A DNA stretch of 25,693 bases from the IMG/VR virus record IMGVR_UViG_3300009436_000102, positions 1 through 25,693 of that record; one strand, written 5' to 3'. The notes beneath the pieces are model-generated. The model did not search any database and was not told the DNA's origin. It saw only the letters and a list, made by a program, of their open reading frames with translations. A program made the position numbers and the translations under genes. Positions 13,417 through 23,758 of the stretch are shown piece after piece; the first letter of the stretch is position 1; each line of letters begins with the position of its first letter. Origin of the DNA: a virus.

Positions 13417-16400
13417 TTAATATTTAGAACCCCCTTGTATTTTATTTTTATTATCTTTTTCTTCTTGTGTTTGTTCTGATGAAAAAAGTTTTTCTATGTC
13501 TGTATCTGTAAATTCAACTGATTTTATAACATTATCTCCATTTTCATTTATCTCTCTTTCTGCCACTTGATAAGGATCTTTTTTAATAATTAAATCATGT
13601 ATTGTTCCATCTGCTTCTTCTACATAAATTTCTCCTCCTCCAATCTTTACACAACCATCCTGGCTAATTGAAAAAGCAGTATGTCTGTCATCATCACTTG
13701 TTCCCATTCCTACTTGAAATATATCTGTAGTGTTAGGGTTATTAAACCTTCCAAGTACAGTTTGATTGTCATTAGCTACAACACCAGTACCTATAGCAAC
13801 ACCTTTTCCTAAAGCAGTATTATTGGTTTCGTTTTCTATTGCAAAACCTCCACTTCTTTTTAAAGAATTTTTTGTTTTACCAGGAGCACCACTTAAATCT
13901 AATTTTCTTTTTTCTACATTTCCAGAATATTCTCTTGCAAAATCTTTTGCTTGTTTAAATTCTAAAAGCTCTACTTTAGTAAGTGTGTTTTTATTAGGTT
14001 GATAATCAATTATTTTATTTACAGTCCAATATGTTGAAACACTATCAATTCTTAAATGAATTAAATCTCTAAAATCAAATGTTGCAATATCAATAGGAGT
14101 AAGATTAAAATATGCTGTTCTTAAAACAGAACCACCATTCATTTTTTCATAAGCAACTCTCCAATACTTTTCAAAAAGACCTAAACTTTCTTTACCATTT
14201 TGATCATCATGATTACACCATGATAAGCAATAAGGATCTGTATCAATACCCTGCTTCCAGCCATCTACCCAATCCATGTAAGGATATTCATCTTTAGTTT
14301 GAGCAAATCCAGCATCATTTTCCCATTGGTAAGGACTACATTTATGAGTTGATCTTTTAGTTGAAGAGCTATCCATCCACCAATCAGGTTGTTCATTATG
14401 ATGCCCATTTAGTAAACTGTAATGATTTAATATTCTTAATTTCATTTTAGGAAACCTTATTCTTTCAGGTCTAGCTGCTGTATTTATAGATCCTCCATCA
14501 TCATACCAATAAATAGGCATTATTGGATTTGCTTTTTTAGTAGCAGGATTATTCCAAGACTGATCTCCCCAACCATAATGACCATTAGAATGTTGAGAAG
14601 GATTAGGCTGAACTCCATATTGGTTTGTTCTTACTGAAATAGCAACTTCTTTTGTTCCAAGCTCTACAGTTTTTTTTCTAAATCTTTCACTTTGAATTTC
14701 AATATGAGTTTGATATTCACCTTTTCCTACATTTTCTCTCCAGCGATCAATAACTTCTATTAATTCATCTCCACTATCTCTAGTGTATCTAAATACTATT
14801 TCTTTAGCTAGTTCTTCTACTATAAATTTATCATTCCATTTAGAAACATCTAATTTTTCAGACCAATCTTTTGTTTCTCCACTACCAAAAAAATCATTAT
14901 AAGGCTCTATATGAATAGTTCTATTAATAGCATCTGCTTTCCATTGAAGATTAAACATTTCTGTCAATCCTTTTAATAAATCAATTTGTTTTGTTTCACA
15001 ACTTAATATTTGATTATTATTTACATCTACAGATGGTATTCCTCCAGATGCTAAAGGATAAACTAGGGCTTCCATACCTACACCTCTAACCCAATATTTA
15101 TATGCATACATATATGATTCTGCTACTATTCTCCAACTTAATACATCTCCAGCTTGGCATCCAGTCATTGTAATATCATCTGCATAAGCATGAAGGCCAT
15201 GATCTCCCAATCCTGGTAATTGTCCCCACCATACATCTCCTTGAACTACACCATTTTTTAAAAAATGAATCCTTACATGTCCACCATCTCCAAATGTTCC
15301 ATAACTAACATCTATATCCCCAGAAAGAACCATTTTGTAATCTCCAGCGAAAGGAACTGTATAGCCATGGTTAGAAGATCCATAAGCCGATCCAGTACCA
15401 CCATTACCAGAAAGGCAATTACTTAAATCACTATGTATATGTATTGAAGGGTACCAAGTTCTATTATGACCATTTTGAGGAATATATCCACCATTTTTAA
15501 AGTTAGATTGTCCTAAAAGGTCATCAGCTTGATGACTTCCTGATATTTTGGCTTTTGCATAATAATCACCATTAGAACCAAAAATATTATTAGAAATTAA
15601 ATATGATTCTCCAGCACCAAAAGGTTGGCATAGTAAATGTGCTGTTGTACTGTTAAAAAATCTACTTTCTACAGTATAACCAATAGATTCAAATATTTTG
15701 TCTACTAAGATTTTAGTATAAACAACTGGATGAAAATCTTGAGCATTATGAGTATATTGTTTATTAGCAGTATTTATAGATTTGTGATACCATTCTCCGT
15801 ATTGAGCTAATCCCCAAAACCAAGGTTGAGCAGGAATCTCAACTCCAGTTTCATCTTTTGTAGGAAATGGTTTGTTAAATAACCAGCTTAATTGTACCAA
15901 CTCAGAGTTTTTTGATGTTGTAGGAGAAACTTGACCATTCCAATCTTCACCCAACATAAGTATATCACATAATTTACCTTCTCCTAATTCTTCAGTCCAA
16001 TCAATAGTATCTTCAACTATATGACATTTGTAAAAACCTCCATTTGCAGTATTACCTTCTTCTATACGCATTAATCCTTCAAAGACATGAACTCCATTTG
16101 CTTTAACCCTACCTCTTTGCCATCCAATAGTTCTTTTTTCTGAGTTTACACCTAACATTGGTGTTAAAACTGAATTATTATGAGGACTTGCTGGTAACAT
16201 AAATGTTTTTGAATATCCAGCAGTTCTTTTTGAAATATCACTAATATCTCCTACACTAAAATTTAAAGATAAAGGCACTCCTTCACTTTCAAATACTTCA
16301 AGAAAATTCCATTTGTAATTATCAACATCATAATCAAGAGTTGATCCATAAATAGGCTCTTGCTCTCTTCTTAAGTCTGGATCTTTTTTATTAAGTTCTA

Positions 16401-17628
16401 TTGATTCTATAATTACACTTGCACCAGCACCAGAATCTATTTGCTCAACATTTAAAAGTGTTAGCTGACCATCCATCATATCAGCAAATTCAGGCAATGG
16501 ACTTCCTGCAACTCTTTCCATGCCAGTATCAGCAAGTGCAAAATTACCACTATTATTTTTTCCTTTCCAAACAGCACTATGAGGTAATGCTGCCAGACAA
16601 ACAGTATAAACACCAGGAGTTACAATTTCAAAACCATTAGTTAATCCAGAAGTTATAGCTGAATTTTCAGGAGTTCCTTCAAAAAGTTGAATTTTAGCAT
16701 TTACTATTGAAGCTACAGTAATTTTAATTTCCCATGATTGCAATCCAGTATTTATACCTGGCTGATTATCATCCCAATTAGTTCCAACTATAGCTTCTCT
16801 AAAATCTGATCCTCTTAATCCAAGATAACCTTCATTTACAAAACATTCATTTATTTCTAAGTTTTGTTGTGAACCACTAAACATTTTACCTCTATAAGAC
16901 ATTGCTTTTGACTGACTTTCTGCATTCCAGCTTAATGTGTTTCCACTACTATCCCATTTCCCAGAATGAACATAAGGAGAAACATACCAAGTATAATCTT
17001 CATGATTAAAAGCTTGATTACCTACATGCCATATATTATCTATTTGAGCATAATCATCTAAATGATCTCCACCATTACCTTTTACAATTAACATATCGTT
17101 ACCATAAGAGTCTACTATATCAAAACACATAGTAACTACACTACCTACAGTTCTTTTTATATAAAGACATCTACCTTGAACATTCCAATCTCCTTGTCTA
17201 GCTTGTTGAACACCATTATAAGGCCTATGCAATCCATTACCCCAACTCCAAGGCTCTAGTCTATGAAAATTGGGAGGGCTAAATCCAACAACACCTAAGT
17301 TAAACATAATTAATTTAGCATTACTAGAAGGCTCGTAAGCTATTCCAGCTAAATTAGGCTGTATTTGAGTTTGAGAACATCCAAGAGCAGTATCTCCTAC
17401 TCCCCAATAATAACCTATGTAAGCTCCACTATAACCTTCCTTGTATATATCAGGAAATGCATTAGTAGGATTAAATCCCATATCTCCTGATGAATTTGCA
17501 GGTTCAGTACATCCATGGTAAACATCTATATCATTATACCCTATTATTACATTATTAGAAATATTCTTAGTTCCATCAAGCTCTCCAATCTCTAATACTA
17601 CATTGTAGGGTTCATTACTTTCGGCCAT
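13417..17628 (-). CDS. Large tail/receptor-binding virion protein
   Basis: A 1403-residue protein, rich in Trp, Asn, Gly and Tyr and largely beta. Residues about 440-560 (LNFSVGDISDISKRTAGYSKTFMLPAS...) resemble a domain shared by tail proteins of Bacteroidota phages. Near residues 1265-1340 it has FAIENETNNTALGKGVAIGTG, QTVLGRFN and DDRHTAFSISQDGCVKIGG, a tail-fibre/spike pattern found near the ends of host-recognition proteins. It is therefore probably a baseplate or fibre component. It overlaps the preceding gene by one base (TAATG) and ends 10 bases before the tape measure. Whether it is processed is unknown. Confidence 0.7.
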   Translation of the reverse strand: MAESNEPYNVVLEIGELDGTKNISNNVIIGYNDIDVYHGCTEPANSSGDMGFNPTNAFPDIYKEGYSGAYIGYYWGVGDTALGCSQTQIQPNLAGIAYEPSSNAKLIMFNLGVVGFSPPNFHRLEPWSWGNGLHRPYNGVQQARQGDWNVQGRCLYIKRTVGSVVTMCFDIVDSYGNDMLIVKGNGGDHLDDYAQIDNIWHVGNQAFNHEDYTWYVSPYVHSGKWDSSGNTLSWNAESQSKAMSYRGKMFSGSQQNLEINECFVNEGYLGLRGSDFREAIVGTNWDDNQPGINTGLQSWEIKITVASIVNAKIQLFEGTPENSAITSGLTNGFEIVTPGVYTVCLAALPHSAVWKGKNNSGNFALADTGMERVAGSPLPEFADMMDGQLTLLNVEQIDSGAGASVIIESIELNKKDPDLRREQEPIYGSTLDYDVDNYKWNFLEVFESEGVPLSLNFSVGDISDISKRTAGYSKTFMLPASPHNNSVLTPMLGVNSEKRTIGWQRGRVKANGVHVFEGLMRIEEGNTANGGFYKCHIVEDTIDWTEELGEGKLCDILMLGEDWNGQVSPTTSKNSELVQLSWLFNKPFPTKDETGVEIPAQPWFWGLAQYGEWYHKSINTANKQYTHNAQDFHPVVYTKILVDKIFESIGYTVESRFFNSTTAHLLCQPFGAGESYLISNNIFGSNGDYYAKAKISGSHQADDLLGQSNFKNGGYIPQNGHNRTWYPSIHIHSDLSNCLSGNGGTGSAYGSSNHGYTVPFAGDYKMVLSGDIDVSYGTFGDGGHVRIHFLKNGVVQGDVWWGQLPGLGDHGLHAYADDITMTGCQAGDVLSWRIVAESYMYAYKYWVRGVGMEALVYPLASGGIPSVDVNNNQILSCETKQIDLLKGLTEMFNLQWKADAINRTIHIEPYNDFFGSGETKDWSEKLDVSKWNDKFIVEELAKEIVFRYTRDSGDELIEVIDRWRENVGKGEYQTHIEIQSERFRKKTVELGTKEVAISVRTNQYGVQPNPSQHSNGHYGWGDQSWNNPATKKANPIMPIYWYDDGGSINTAARPERIRFPKMKLRILNHYSLLNGHHNEQPDWWMDSSSTKRSTHKCSPYQWENDAGFAQTKDEYPYMDWVDGWKQGIDTDPYCLSWCNHDDQNGKESLGLFEKYWRVAYEKMNGGSVLRTAYFNLTPIDIATFDFRDLIHLRIDSVSTYWTVNKIIDYQPNKNTLTKVELLEFKQAKDFAREYSGNVEKRKLDLSGAPGKTKNSLKRSGGFAIENETNNTALGKGVAIGTGVVANDNQTVLGRFNNPNTTDIFQVGMGTSDDDRHTAFSISQDGCVKIGGGEIYVEEADGTIHDLIIKKDPYQVAEREINENGDNVIKSVEFTDTDIEKLFSSEQTQEEKDNKNKIQGGSKY

Positions 17629-19119: not shown

Positions 19120-19659
19120 TTATATTGTTCTATGTAAAGCTCTATGAGCATCTATATTAACAGCCATCATAACTTGTGATCTCATATACTCTACTAATTC
19201 ATTATCTAATTGTCTTACTATCTCTTGCACCCAACCTAAATTCATAGGAGCTTTGTTTTTCTGCTTCTGAGTTGCTGCAATACGAAAAGCAGCTTTTAAT
19301 CCTTTTTTATAATCTCCTTTATAAAACTTTTTAGCAGCCCAGGCAGCTAATCCTCTTATATATGCACTTCCTGGCTTTCCTCCTTCTCCTGAACCTTTAG
19401 AAAAAGGAACATCATTAATTCCTCTGTCTAAAAATAAACCATATTTATGTTCTGTAGTTACAACTACAGTTATTCTATTACCACCAGCATTTGTAACCTC
19501 TGATTTAAGACTTTTTGATAAATCTCCAGAAGTTGTCATCCTTTTTGTACTAGGATCACCACCTTTAGTTCTGATAATATTTAACTGCTTTCTTATTCTT
19601 TTTTCAGCAATTTTACCAGCTCCTTTTACTAAATTATCTATACTGCTTAATCTACTCAC
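19120..19659 (-). CDS. HK97-gp10-like head-tail/neck protein
   Basis: A 179-residue basic protein. The pattern S(G)DLSKSLKSEVTNAGGNRITVVVTTEHKYGLFLDRGI (residues about 43-82) matches the HK97 gp10-like tail-completion fold: short helix, beta strands, then YG.FLDRG. The end is helical. It starts with GTG at 19659, two bases after the previous stop; no ATG lies nearby (the next Met is residue 41), so GTG is the likely start. It presumably helps join head and tail. Confidence 0.7.
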   Translation of the reverse strand: MSRLSSIDNLVKGAGKIAEKRIRKQLNIIRTKGGDPSTKRMTTSGDLSKSLKSEVTNAGGNRITVVVTTEHKYGLFLDRGINDVPFSKGSGEGGKPGSAYIRGLAAWAAKKFYKGDYKKGLKAAFRIAATQKQKNKAPMNLGWVQEIVRQLDNELVEYMRSQVMMAVNIDAHRALHRTI

Positions 19660-19661
19660 TC

Positions 19662-20369
19662 TTAGTCTATGTCTAATTCTGGGTTACTTGTTTGATCATC
19701 AGGGAAAGCTGGAGGGAATACACTACCATCATTCTCTACACATGGCTGTTCTCCTTCTCCATAACAACAAGTTCCATCATCAACCCCAGCATTAGGATCA
19801 TAGTTAATTGCTAATGGATCAGTACATCCACAAGCACCAAAATACTCTGCACAAGGGCTATCACATCCTTCCCCACCACCACCATTACTACAAGGATCTA
19901 CAGTTACAGCAATATTTGCTATAGCATCAAACTTAACTTTTAAAGTTATTAAATTATCATTGTAAGTTCCTTTATCTCTATATATTTGAATTTTATGTTT
20001 TGGTATATGAGCTTTACACCCACCACCACCACTAATACCAAGTGCAAGGCAAGACAACATATTCCATAACTTTAATTCAAGAGCAGCCATTGCTGTAACA
20101 GCATAATTGTCAAATTTTTGAATACCCTCTTTGCTACCTCTGTTTAATGGTCTAGCTAATACTAATTCAAAAGTATAAACTTCTTTAATACCTTCTGCAA
20201 TATAAGATGAAGGGTAATCAATATTAAGCAAATCATAACAAATATTATGATCAAAATTTATATGGTCTGGCTTTCCAAATTTAACAGTACAAAAACCAGC
20301 AGCTTTTGCACAAGTCTGAAAGTCTGTCATTAATGATGTTAAATCGTAGGTAGTATTATAGGTACTCAT
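19662..20369 (-). CDS. Tail-terminator-like protein with C-terminal GCTDP module
   Basis: A 235-residue protein. Residues 1-155 are a mixed alpha/beta domain (YDLTSLMTDFQTCAKAAGF, YTFELVLARPL, KVKFDAIANI) of the size and layout of tail-terminator proteins; that assignment is tentative. Residues about 160-210 are Cys/Gly-rich and contain GCTDPLAINYDPN and then DDGTC (181-201). This is the short module repeated in secreted surface proteins of marine Bacteroidota. The rest is acidic and Pro-rich. The module may be displayed on the virion surface, possibly to bind the host envelope; this is inference. The gene is 3 bases after the frameshift extension and 2 before the gp10-like gene. Confidence 0.7.
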   Translation of the reverse strand: MSTYNTTYDLTSLMTDFQTCAKAAGFCTVKFGKPDHINFDHNICYDLLNIDYPSSYIAEGIKEVYTFELVLARPLNRGSKEGIQKFDNYAVTAMAALELKLWNMLSCLALGISGGGGCKAHIPKHKIQIYRDKGTYNDNLITLKVKFDAIANIAVTVDPCSNGGGGEGCDSPCAEYFGACGCTDPLAINYDPNAGVDDGTCCYGEGEQPCVENDGSVFPPAFPDDQTSNPELDID

Positions 20370-20372
20370 ATT

Positions 20373-20651
20373 TTATTTATTATGTAATTCATTTAAACTT
20401 TTTTCATACTGATTACAAGCAGATTTCCAAGATAAATATGTCAATATATCAAAAAGATTAGCTAACTGAACACTTACAAGGGGAGTTTCACCTGGCAAGG
20501 TAAATATTCCATCTTGAGCAATGTTATACAAGGAATTTAACCAACCATAACCATCTATTGTTGATTTTGCAGCTATCCTTGCTTTTGCATCTCCTCCACC
20601 TCCTGAAAGGTTAGGGAACTGATCACTAATCTTTGTTCTAACTTGTTCAAA
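20373..20651 (-). CDS. -1 frameshift extension of the tail assembly chaperone (GT part)
   Basis: The frame continues from the T9 run to a stop at 20373, giving about 92 residues (FEQVRTKISDQFPNLSGGGG, then hydrophobic and helical, ending NELHNK). It contains no Met and no plausible ATG, and the only early initiation codon is a TTG at 20669 inside the upstream gene. It is therefore best read as the product of -1 slippage from the upstream gene. The predicted fusion is 191 + 92 = about 283 residues. This is how lambda G-GT and many siphovirus chaperones are made. Confidence 0.75.
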   Translation of the reverse strand, partial: FEQVRTKISDQFPNLSGGGGDAKARIAAKSTIDGYGWLNSLYNIAQDGIFTLPGETPLVSVQLANLFDILTYLSWKSACNQYEKSLNELHNK

Positions 20652-21223
20652 AAAAAAGCGACATCCCAAATGGTTGCCATATCTAATTTTTTAAACATTT
20701 CTGCTCGTTTATCTATTATTCCATCATCTAGCTTTTCACTTTCTCCTTCTTTTTTACAAAGTATAGCAATTTGTCTTGGCAATATATCTAAATTACCTTT
20801 ATCTAACATATTACTATGTAATTCTAATTGTTCGGCTTCTATATATCTACCAAAAGATGATTTTTGCATAAACTCTACTGGTAAATAAAATTTTTCTTCT
20901 TTTAATACAAATGATTCTATATGTATAGGAACATAAGACTCATTTAAGAATGTAAGATGATTCATTAAATTAGCAGCTACATCTATATCTAGCATACTTA
21001 CTTGCTCTTCTGTTAGCTTAGACCAATAACAAAGTATTTGAGTGTTATCCTTTAAATCTAAAAGAGCATTTTCCCATTCTTTTGTAACATCATTTTTATT
21101 AGCAGCTTCTCTATTAACAAAGTTTTGTATCAGTTTAGTAAACCCTACAAAATCGCCAAAACTAACCTCCATCCAATTATCTGGAAGTTCTATAATATTA
21201 TCATTTAGATTAAATTCAGTCAT
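20573..21223 (-). CDS. Tail assembly chaperone (G-like), zero-frame product
   Basis: A 216-residue acidic protein, predicted mostly helical (LPRQIAILCKKEGESEKLD, then RAEMFKKLDMATIWDVAFFL). The shape and the frameshift site fit a G-like tail assembly chaperone, which binds the tape measure and recruits tail-tube subunits. At codon 188-192 it reads GCT TTT TTT TTG AAC. The frameshifted form would replace its last 25 residues with a 92-residue extension. It starts in the stop of the upstream gene (TAATG). In most siphoviruses G-GT lies next to the tape measure; here four virion genes separate them. Confidence 0.75.
   Translation of the reverse strand: MTEFNLNDNIIELPDNWMEVSFGDFVGFTKLIQNFVNREAANKNDVTKEWENALLDLKDNTQILCYWSKLTEEQVSMLDIDVAANLMNHLTFLNESYVPIHIESFVLKEEKFYLPVEFMQKSSFGRYIEAEQLELHSNMLDKGNLDILPRQIAILCKKEGESEKLDDGIIDKRAEMFKKLDMATIWDVAFFLNKLEQRLVISSLTFQEVEEMQKQG
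20648..20657 (-). promoter_or_regulatory. Programmed -1 ribosomal frameshift site (T TTT TTT / T TTT TTG)
   Basis: On the minus strand the run of nine T's (20657-20649) followed by G is read in the zero frame as GCT TTT TTT TTG. Both T_TTT_TTT and T_TTT_TTG obey the X_XXY_YYZ rule for -1 slippage. The -1 frame has no own start and stays open for about 92 codons. A weak GTTAG/CTAAC pairing lies downstream; I see no strong pseudoknot. Transcriptional slippage on the T9 run is an alternative route to the same product. Confidence 0.8.
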
Positions 21224-23167: not shown

Positions 23168-23758
23168 TTATAGGTTAAATATTTGATTTTGCTCAAGACT
23201 TGGAACATCAGAAGGTAAATTAGCAGGAAGCCAAGTTGTTTTAATATAATTCTGTATCGTACTGTTTGCTCCTTGACCATTATTAACAACATACTTTAAA
23301 TCTGGAAATTGCTTACTTTTATTAACCATTACTTTAAATTGCTCTAATGTTATTGTTCCAGATGGAGTAGATGGAGTTGCAGGATCATTTTCAAGAAAAG
23401 CAGCATGAGCAACTATAGTATCATAGAAACTTTCTGATTCTTCTGGCATTACAACATAGGAAGATAAGTTTTTTATTTCCCCAAGAGTTAATCCAGGATG
23501 CAGTACATCTTCTTCTGTTCCAAAAAAAGTTATTGTTATAGCATAGACAGTTCCTTCTACAAACTCTGTTTTGCTCCCACCAACTGATTTTATAATATCT
23601 TCTCTTTGTGTTTCTGCCTTAATATATTTACCTTCAGATGTATGTTTCTTTAAAGACTTAACAAGTGATTTACTTGTAGTTCCTCTGTCTAATGTTGTTC
23701 TTACATGTGCAGATTTACCAGCATTCTTAACTTTTCTAGCTTTAATTATGTATGTCAT
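23168..23758 (-). CDS. Hypothetical protein between terminase subunits
   Basis: A 196-residue protein. The N-terminal 40 residues are basic (KARKVKNAGKSAHVRTTLDRG), the middle mixed alpha/beta, and a Pro/Ser/Thr linker near residue 130 (NDPATPSTPSG) separates a small C-terminal part. I do not recognise the family. The terminase region often holds packaging or head proteins, so a virion role is possible. It is separated from the upstream terminase small subunit gene by 154 bases of structured non-coding DNA. Confidence 0.6.
   Translation of the reverse strand: MTYIIKARKVKNAGKSAHVRTTLDRGTTSKSLVKSLKKHTSEGKYIKAETQREDIIKSVGGSKTEFVEGTVYAITITFFGTEEDVLHPGLTLGEIKNLSSYVVMPEESESFYDTIVAHAAFLENDPATPSTPSGTITLEQFKVMVNKSKQFPDLKYVVNNGQGANSTIQNYIKTTWLPANLPSDVPSLEQNQIFNL

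Follow-up and report, generated by a model that had tools for sequence, protein, structure and literature searches.

How would a phage make a protein domain whose reading frame holds no methionine? In the stretch of DNA analysed here (the window, a 25.7-kb IMG/VR phage record of 30.8% GC), a gene on the minus strand overlaps a second frame, displaced by -1, that stays open to position 20373 with no Met in the 91 codons after a run of nine Ts. The letters of the minus strand are GC (20659-20658), then TTTTTTTTT (nine Ts, 20657-20649), then G (20648). An earlier note on this sequence had read the run as a slippery site, GCT TTT TTT TTG, lying 25 codons before the 0-frame stop. Both that reading and the open, Met-less -1 frame are borne out by the letters and by the open reading frames: the 0-frame stop is the 25th codon after TTG, so that 24 residues precede it. 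Splicing the two frames at the run gives a fusion of 283 aa. Runs of nine or more As or Ts are rarer in the window than expected, with two observed against 4.3 under a first-order Markov model. The region of this gene is identical in a 40.9-kb contig (G001), and the features discussed below are listed in Table 1.

Table 1. Positions of the slip site, the two reading frames and the neighbouring genes in the window.
Feature	Position	Strand	Basis or remark
Slip site T9-G, read GCT TTT TTT TTG	20648..20657	(-)	U_UUU_UUU and U_UUU_UUG both in the 0 frame
0-frame gene, short product (G-like), 216 aa	20573..21223	(-)	ORF; 34-sequence alignment, 39-86% identity
-1 frame extension (T-like domain), 94 codons from the T run onwards	20373..20657	(-)	ORF; homologous to the -1 extension in P12024S and to one-frame proteins at their C-terminus
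Stretch directly before the run, TTGGGATGTCGC	20658..20669	(-)	Excess synonymous constraint; contains a TTG, the one candidate start of the -1 frame before the run
Terminase large subunit, 439 aa	21674..22993	(-)	PHROG 2, E 3e-39; Pfam Terminase_6N
235-aa protein after the frameshift gene	19662..20369	(-)	Weak similarity to its 158-aa counterpart in L098, E 0.0015
179-aa HK97-gp10-like (neck or tail completion) protein	19120..19659	(-)	Pfam PF04883, E 0.0025, below the cut-off
1403-aa protein, counterpart of P12024S gp45	13417..17628	(-)	phrog_38559; phmmer E 8e-8
Tape measure protein, 1338 aa	9390..13406	(-)	PHROG 1533, E 1e-61; Pfam PhageMin_Tail; read in the identical G001 contig

Comparison with relatives strongly supports a -1 frameshift at the T9 run, which we regard as very probable. 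The two products of 216 and about 283 residues that the earlier note had proposed are likewise strongly supported, given that the T9 is kept, the -1 extension has homologues, the same protein occurs in one frame elsewhere and some relatives have no start codon in the -1 frame.

In the clade of the window (clade 1), an unbiased search with an alignment of the 0-frame part that ended before the slip site returned 62 loci. T9 follows at once or within 5 nt in 60 of the 60 loci in which the match to this slip-site-free query reaches the site, and the two others (L097 and L098), read separately, both carry T9-G. The codons G[C/G]T TTT TTT TTG are identical in all 26 representatives that share less than 85% nucleotide identity with one another (minimum about 53%), and the alignment of relatives suggested at the outset as a check thus bears out a conserved slippery run. 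TTG accounts for 13% of Leu codons in these genes, GGT for 38% of Gly, GCT for 57% of Ala and TTT for 81% of Phe. A previous search with the -1 protein gave 28 loci, of which the distinct ones read all have T9 (one query pattern contained the slip site). In L099, the most distant member (23% identity), the base after T9 is A.

The -1 extension is 56-93% identical to that of the window in 31 other sequences. In this frame the residue after FFF may be E, D, G, V or A, and because these residues differ yet every codon starts with G, the G after the run seems to be held for its own sake. Immediately upstream of the run, GAT is kept in 26/26 representatives and GTC in 20/26, versus 2% of Val codons; this synonymous constraint may mark a stimulator or the trace of weak internal initiation. 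In the phage collection, similarity at the DNA level was confined to the terminase of Flavobacterium phage 11b (two records), and a search for host prophages in one genome each of 84,980 species yielded no relatives.

A second clade includes cultured phages. A Foldseek search with the 0-frame model led to gp38 of Nonlabens (Persicivirga) phage P12024S, a gene directly after the terminase. P12024S and P12024L, together with a marine and freshwater clade, have T9 at the corresponding position and in a different codon phase; in P12024S the run lies inside gp38, is read CTT TTT TTT TAT, and is the sole T run of nine or more in the 35 kb examined, and the -1 frame enters the annotated gp39. Searching with gp38 gave 63 loci, and the run is present in 43 of 43 non-duplicates, as T9 in 42 and T10 in one, a T9 count that is less clean than that of clade 1 because one of six query patterns spanned the slip site. 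In profile comparisons between the clades, the 0-frame parts score 57.5 (no more than 19.6 for shuffles) and the -1 extensions 59.6 (probability 97%), against at most 18.4 in 30 column-shuffled controls. The P12024S/L pair resembles the gene of the window in its homologous protein, the place of T9, the -1 domain, the position after the terminase and the following genes. It differs in codon phase, in the A after T9 and in being annotated as two genes. These comparisons suggest that gp38 and gp39 are one frameshifted gene, and they should be annotated as such; the cultured phages make the frameshift testable. In the P12024S record (L154:23136-23830, NC_018271.1; T9 at 23578-23586) both are annotated as hypothetical genes, and the annotated ATG of gp39 is an internal Met of the -1 extension.

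Elsewhere the same protein is encoded without a frame break. Flavobacterium phage 2A, Cellulophaga phage Ingeline, Polaribacter phage Leef_1, Bacteroides phage BT-TP2 and Microcystis phage Mea-Yong924-1 have a homologue of 259-301 aa in one frame, without T9. When the profile of the fused marine protein is compared with the 2A protein, the alignment crosses the junction (probability 95.7), and the -1 domain alone matches the C-terminus of the one-frame set with a probability of 90.6, versus 0.5 for the best shuffle. Where the two halves join, the FFF-E/D of clade 1 stands opposite LFFAS, LFFEG or LYFAS in the one-frame proteins. Given that the same protein is encoded in one frame elsewhere, the 283-residue fusion should be a real protein. 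PHROG 25418 (2A, Ingeline of the Duneviridae, and relatives) is homologous over both halves; its members differ in having one continuous frame of about 293-301 aa and no T9, and therefore no short form is predicted for them.

On these sequences the frame break is confined to certain clades. Continuous relatives had been named at the outset as grounds for abandoning the shift; they do exist at a distance, yet the shift in the gene of the window is not refuted, since the nearer clades keep both T9 and the break. In Flavobacterium phage 6H (L150:2001-2880, KC959568.1) a frame change near 2555-2580 interrupts the one-frame homologue, which is intact in 2A, 23T and the FPSV phages (at least 87.9% identical); the 6H break is more suggestive of a local error in the sequence than of a programmed shift.

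We suspect that most decoding stays in the 0 frame and yields the 216-aa protein, while a fraction would slip back one base on T9, at U_UUU_UUU or U_UUU_UUG, with tRNA-Phe re-pairing in the P site and a Leu or Phe tRNA in the A site of the ribosome. Slipped reading would give the 283-aa protein, with its conserved C-terminal domain from the -1 frame. An X_XXY_YYZ heptamer is present in the 0 frame at the overlap in both clades, as T_TTT_TTT and T_TTT_TTG in clade 1 and as T_TTT_TTT in clade 2, and ribosomal slippage on U_UUU_UUU fits them both.

T9 could also be slipped on by RNA polymerase, in which case mRNAs with one extra U would encode the fusion by ordinary translation. Runs of nine As or Ts are a documented substrate for RNA-polymerase slippage in bacteria (PMC5009743), and for this reason such slippage also fits the locus. 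It would account for a run length of nine almost everywhere, in two codon phases and with either G or A after the run. The comparisons returned no ribosomal stimulator: a search of 26 sequences for RNA structure conserved downstream of the site gave none (consensus fold energy -0.9 kcal/mol), and Rfam gave no match. A downstream stimulatory structure is usual in -1 frameshift cassettes, although not obligatory. We nevertheless consider polymerase slippage unlikely, and ribosomal slippage likelier, since a perfect U_UUU_UUU heptamer is kept in the 0 frame by both clades, the G that always follows the clade 1 run is not needed for polymerase slippage, and the nine Ts of clade 2, where one member has T10, can be explained by the heptamer plus amino-acid needs. 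In Shigella mxiE and related genes, homopolymer slippage also gives an extended product, but there RNA-polymerase slippage is the mechanism (PMC5009743).

The -1 domain might instead be a separate protein with its own start. The earlier note had held that this frame could be made only by slippage, and for the window this was too strict, as a -1-frame TTG at 20669-20667, 12 nt upstream of the run, is a candidate start (ATG in 3/26 relatives). An NTG stands at this place in every clade 1 representative (23 TTG, 3 ATG), the upstream synonymous constraint preserves the -1 reading LG[CY]R, and dual coding of FFF and FFL could alone fix T9. The constant NTG has another explanation, however, because conserved 0-frame Ile-Trp codons dictate it. 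Most members of clade 2 offer no start codon upstream of the run in the -1 frame. The -1 ORFs of two members, L175 and L179, are free of ATG, GTG and TTG throughout, so that there the -1 part could be made only by frameshift and the original claim holds. The one-frame homologues moreover show the domain working within a fusion, and we judge an independent start from the TTG or ATG to be very improbable. The chance that the true gene is one continuous frame, disrupted by an assembly or sequencing error, seems negligible even though homopolymers invite errors and homologues with a continuous frame are known: dozens of metagenome contigs and the genomes of two cultured phages show the same T9 with the same break in frame, and a 0-frame overlap of at least 24 codons is conserved. 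Chance and assembly artefact were both rejected as explanations of the run, which is conserved across many metagenomes and the two cultured phages.

The minus-strand order is terminase large subunit, a 137-aa protein, the frameshift gene, the 235-aa and 179-aa proteins, a 507-aa protein corresponding to P12024S gp44 (E 0.0015), the 1403-aa protein and the tape measure, so that four genes and about 7 kb lie between the frameshift gene and the tape-measure gene. Counterparts of the 179-aa protein in L098 and P12024S match PHROG 5 (tail completion/Neck1). P12024S gp45, which shares phrog_38559 with the 1403-aa protein beside the tape measure, has 754 aa and carries a BACON carbohydrate-binding domain in its annotation. 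Portal and ClpP-like head protease genes are found elsewhere in the 40.9-kb contig, the protease being a ClpP-type head maturation protease of 338 aa read in that contig (window 64-1080, minus strand). The head genes and the tail genes are separated by a block of early genes.

Tail assembly chaperones of the lambda gpG/gpGT and HK97 type (PMC5009743, PMC3711429) share with this gene two overlapping frames connected by a -1 slip towards the end of the first, a short and a long product, and a place in the tail gene cluster. They differ in that the gene of the window showed no sequence or profile similarity to them and has a homopolymer T9 as its slip site, a larger first protein, four genes before the tape measure, and sister families fused in one frame. 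The protein matches no chaperone family and no family with known function in Pfam or PHROGs, and searches of the PDB by sequence and by fold gave no usable match. Structures were modelled for the 0-frame part and the -1 part separately. The 0-frame model (mean pLDDT 73.7) resembles many unnamed phage proteins, and among its BFVD fold matches are two weak ones named tail assembly chaperone (E 0.079 and 0.53); the -1 domain model gave no named family in a fold search.

The G-GT tail chaperone pair proposed in the earlier note stands in part. Two overlapping open reading frames joined by a conserved slippery site, within a tail operon, agree with it; the missing profile match does not, nor does the position, as such a pair would be expected between the gene for the major tail protein and that for the tape measure, immediately before the latter. 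In the usual siphovirus gene order the two are not so far from the tape-measure gene. We think it rather probable that the pair has a G/GT-like tail chaperone role, in keeping with its position among the tail genes, its two products, the length of the extension and the weak match in fold. The long form's extra domain would then recruit tail-tube subunits to the tape-measure complex. The pair works like G/GT in this account, but because neither position nor profile agrees we do not count it as a proven member of the lambda-type chaperones.

With a real frameshift, the protein could still be a head-tail connector or neck assembly factor and not a tail-tube chaperone. Its gene stands directly after the terminase, before neck/tail-completion-like genes and away from the tape-measure gene, and in Leef_1 the homologue is upstream of the portal gene. 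In Ingeline, by contrast, it lies three genes upstream of the tape measure, and both the G/GT-like pair of products and the weak resemblance in fold to annotated tail assembly chaperones also speak against a connector, a role that we take as the chief alternative, possible but doubtful. Counting against the two-product account, one-frame relatives appear to manage without the short form. We lean, on balance, towards the whole account, in which a presumed ribosomal -1 slip would give two proteins that act as a G/GT-like chaperone pair. A bolder variant, which strikes us as improbable, is that the G/GT-like pair is made by RNA-polymerase slippage on T9 and that sister families encode the long form only. 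If so, the short-to-long ratio, which is thought to be essential in lambda, would be dispensable across one protein family.

In the open-access literature we found no report of tail-chaperone frameshifting in a flavobacterial phage, and the flavophage genome papers searched there do not describe a frameshift in this gene. With a G/GT-like role, recoding of this type would reach into a wide group of Bacteroidota phages, most of them uncultured, in which the protein family is an unrelated one and the slip site a homopolymer. The one-frame cousins, which have the same two domains, offer a natural test of why phages keep the short form. A third and distant type of the gene, at L098:3782-4659, is known from two near-identical loci only; it has T9-G, a 0-frame overlap that extends about 52 codons beyond the slip, and a -1-frame ATG 6 nt downstream of the run.
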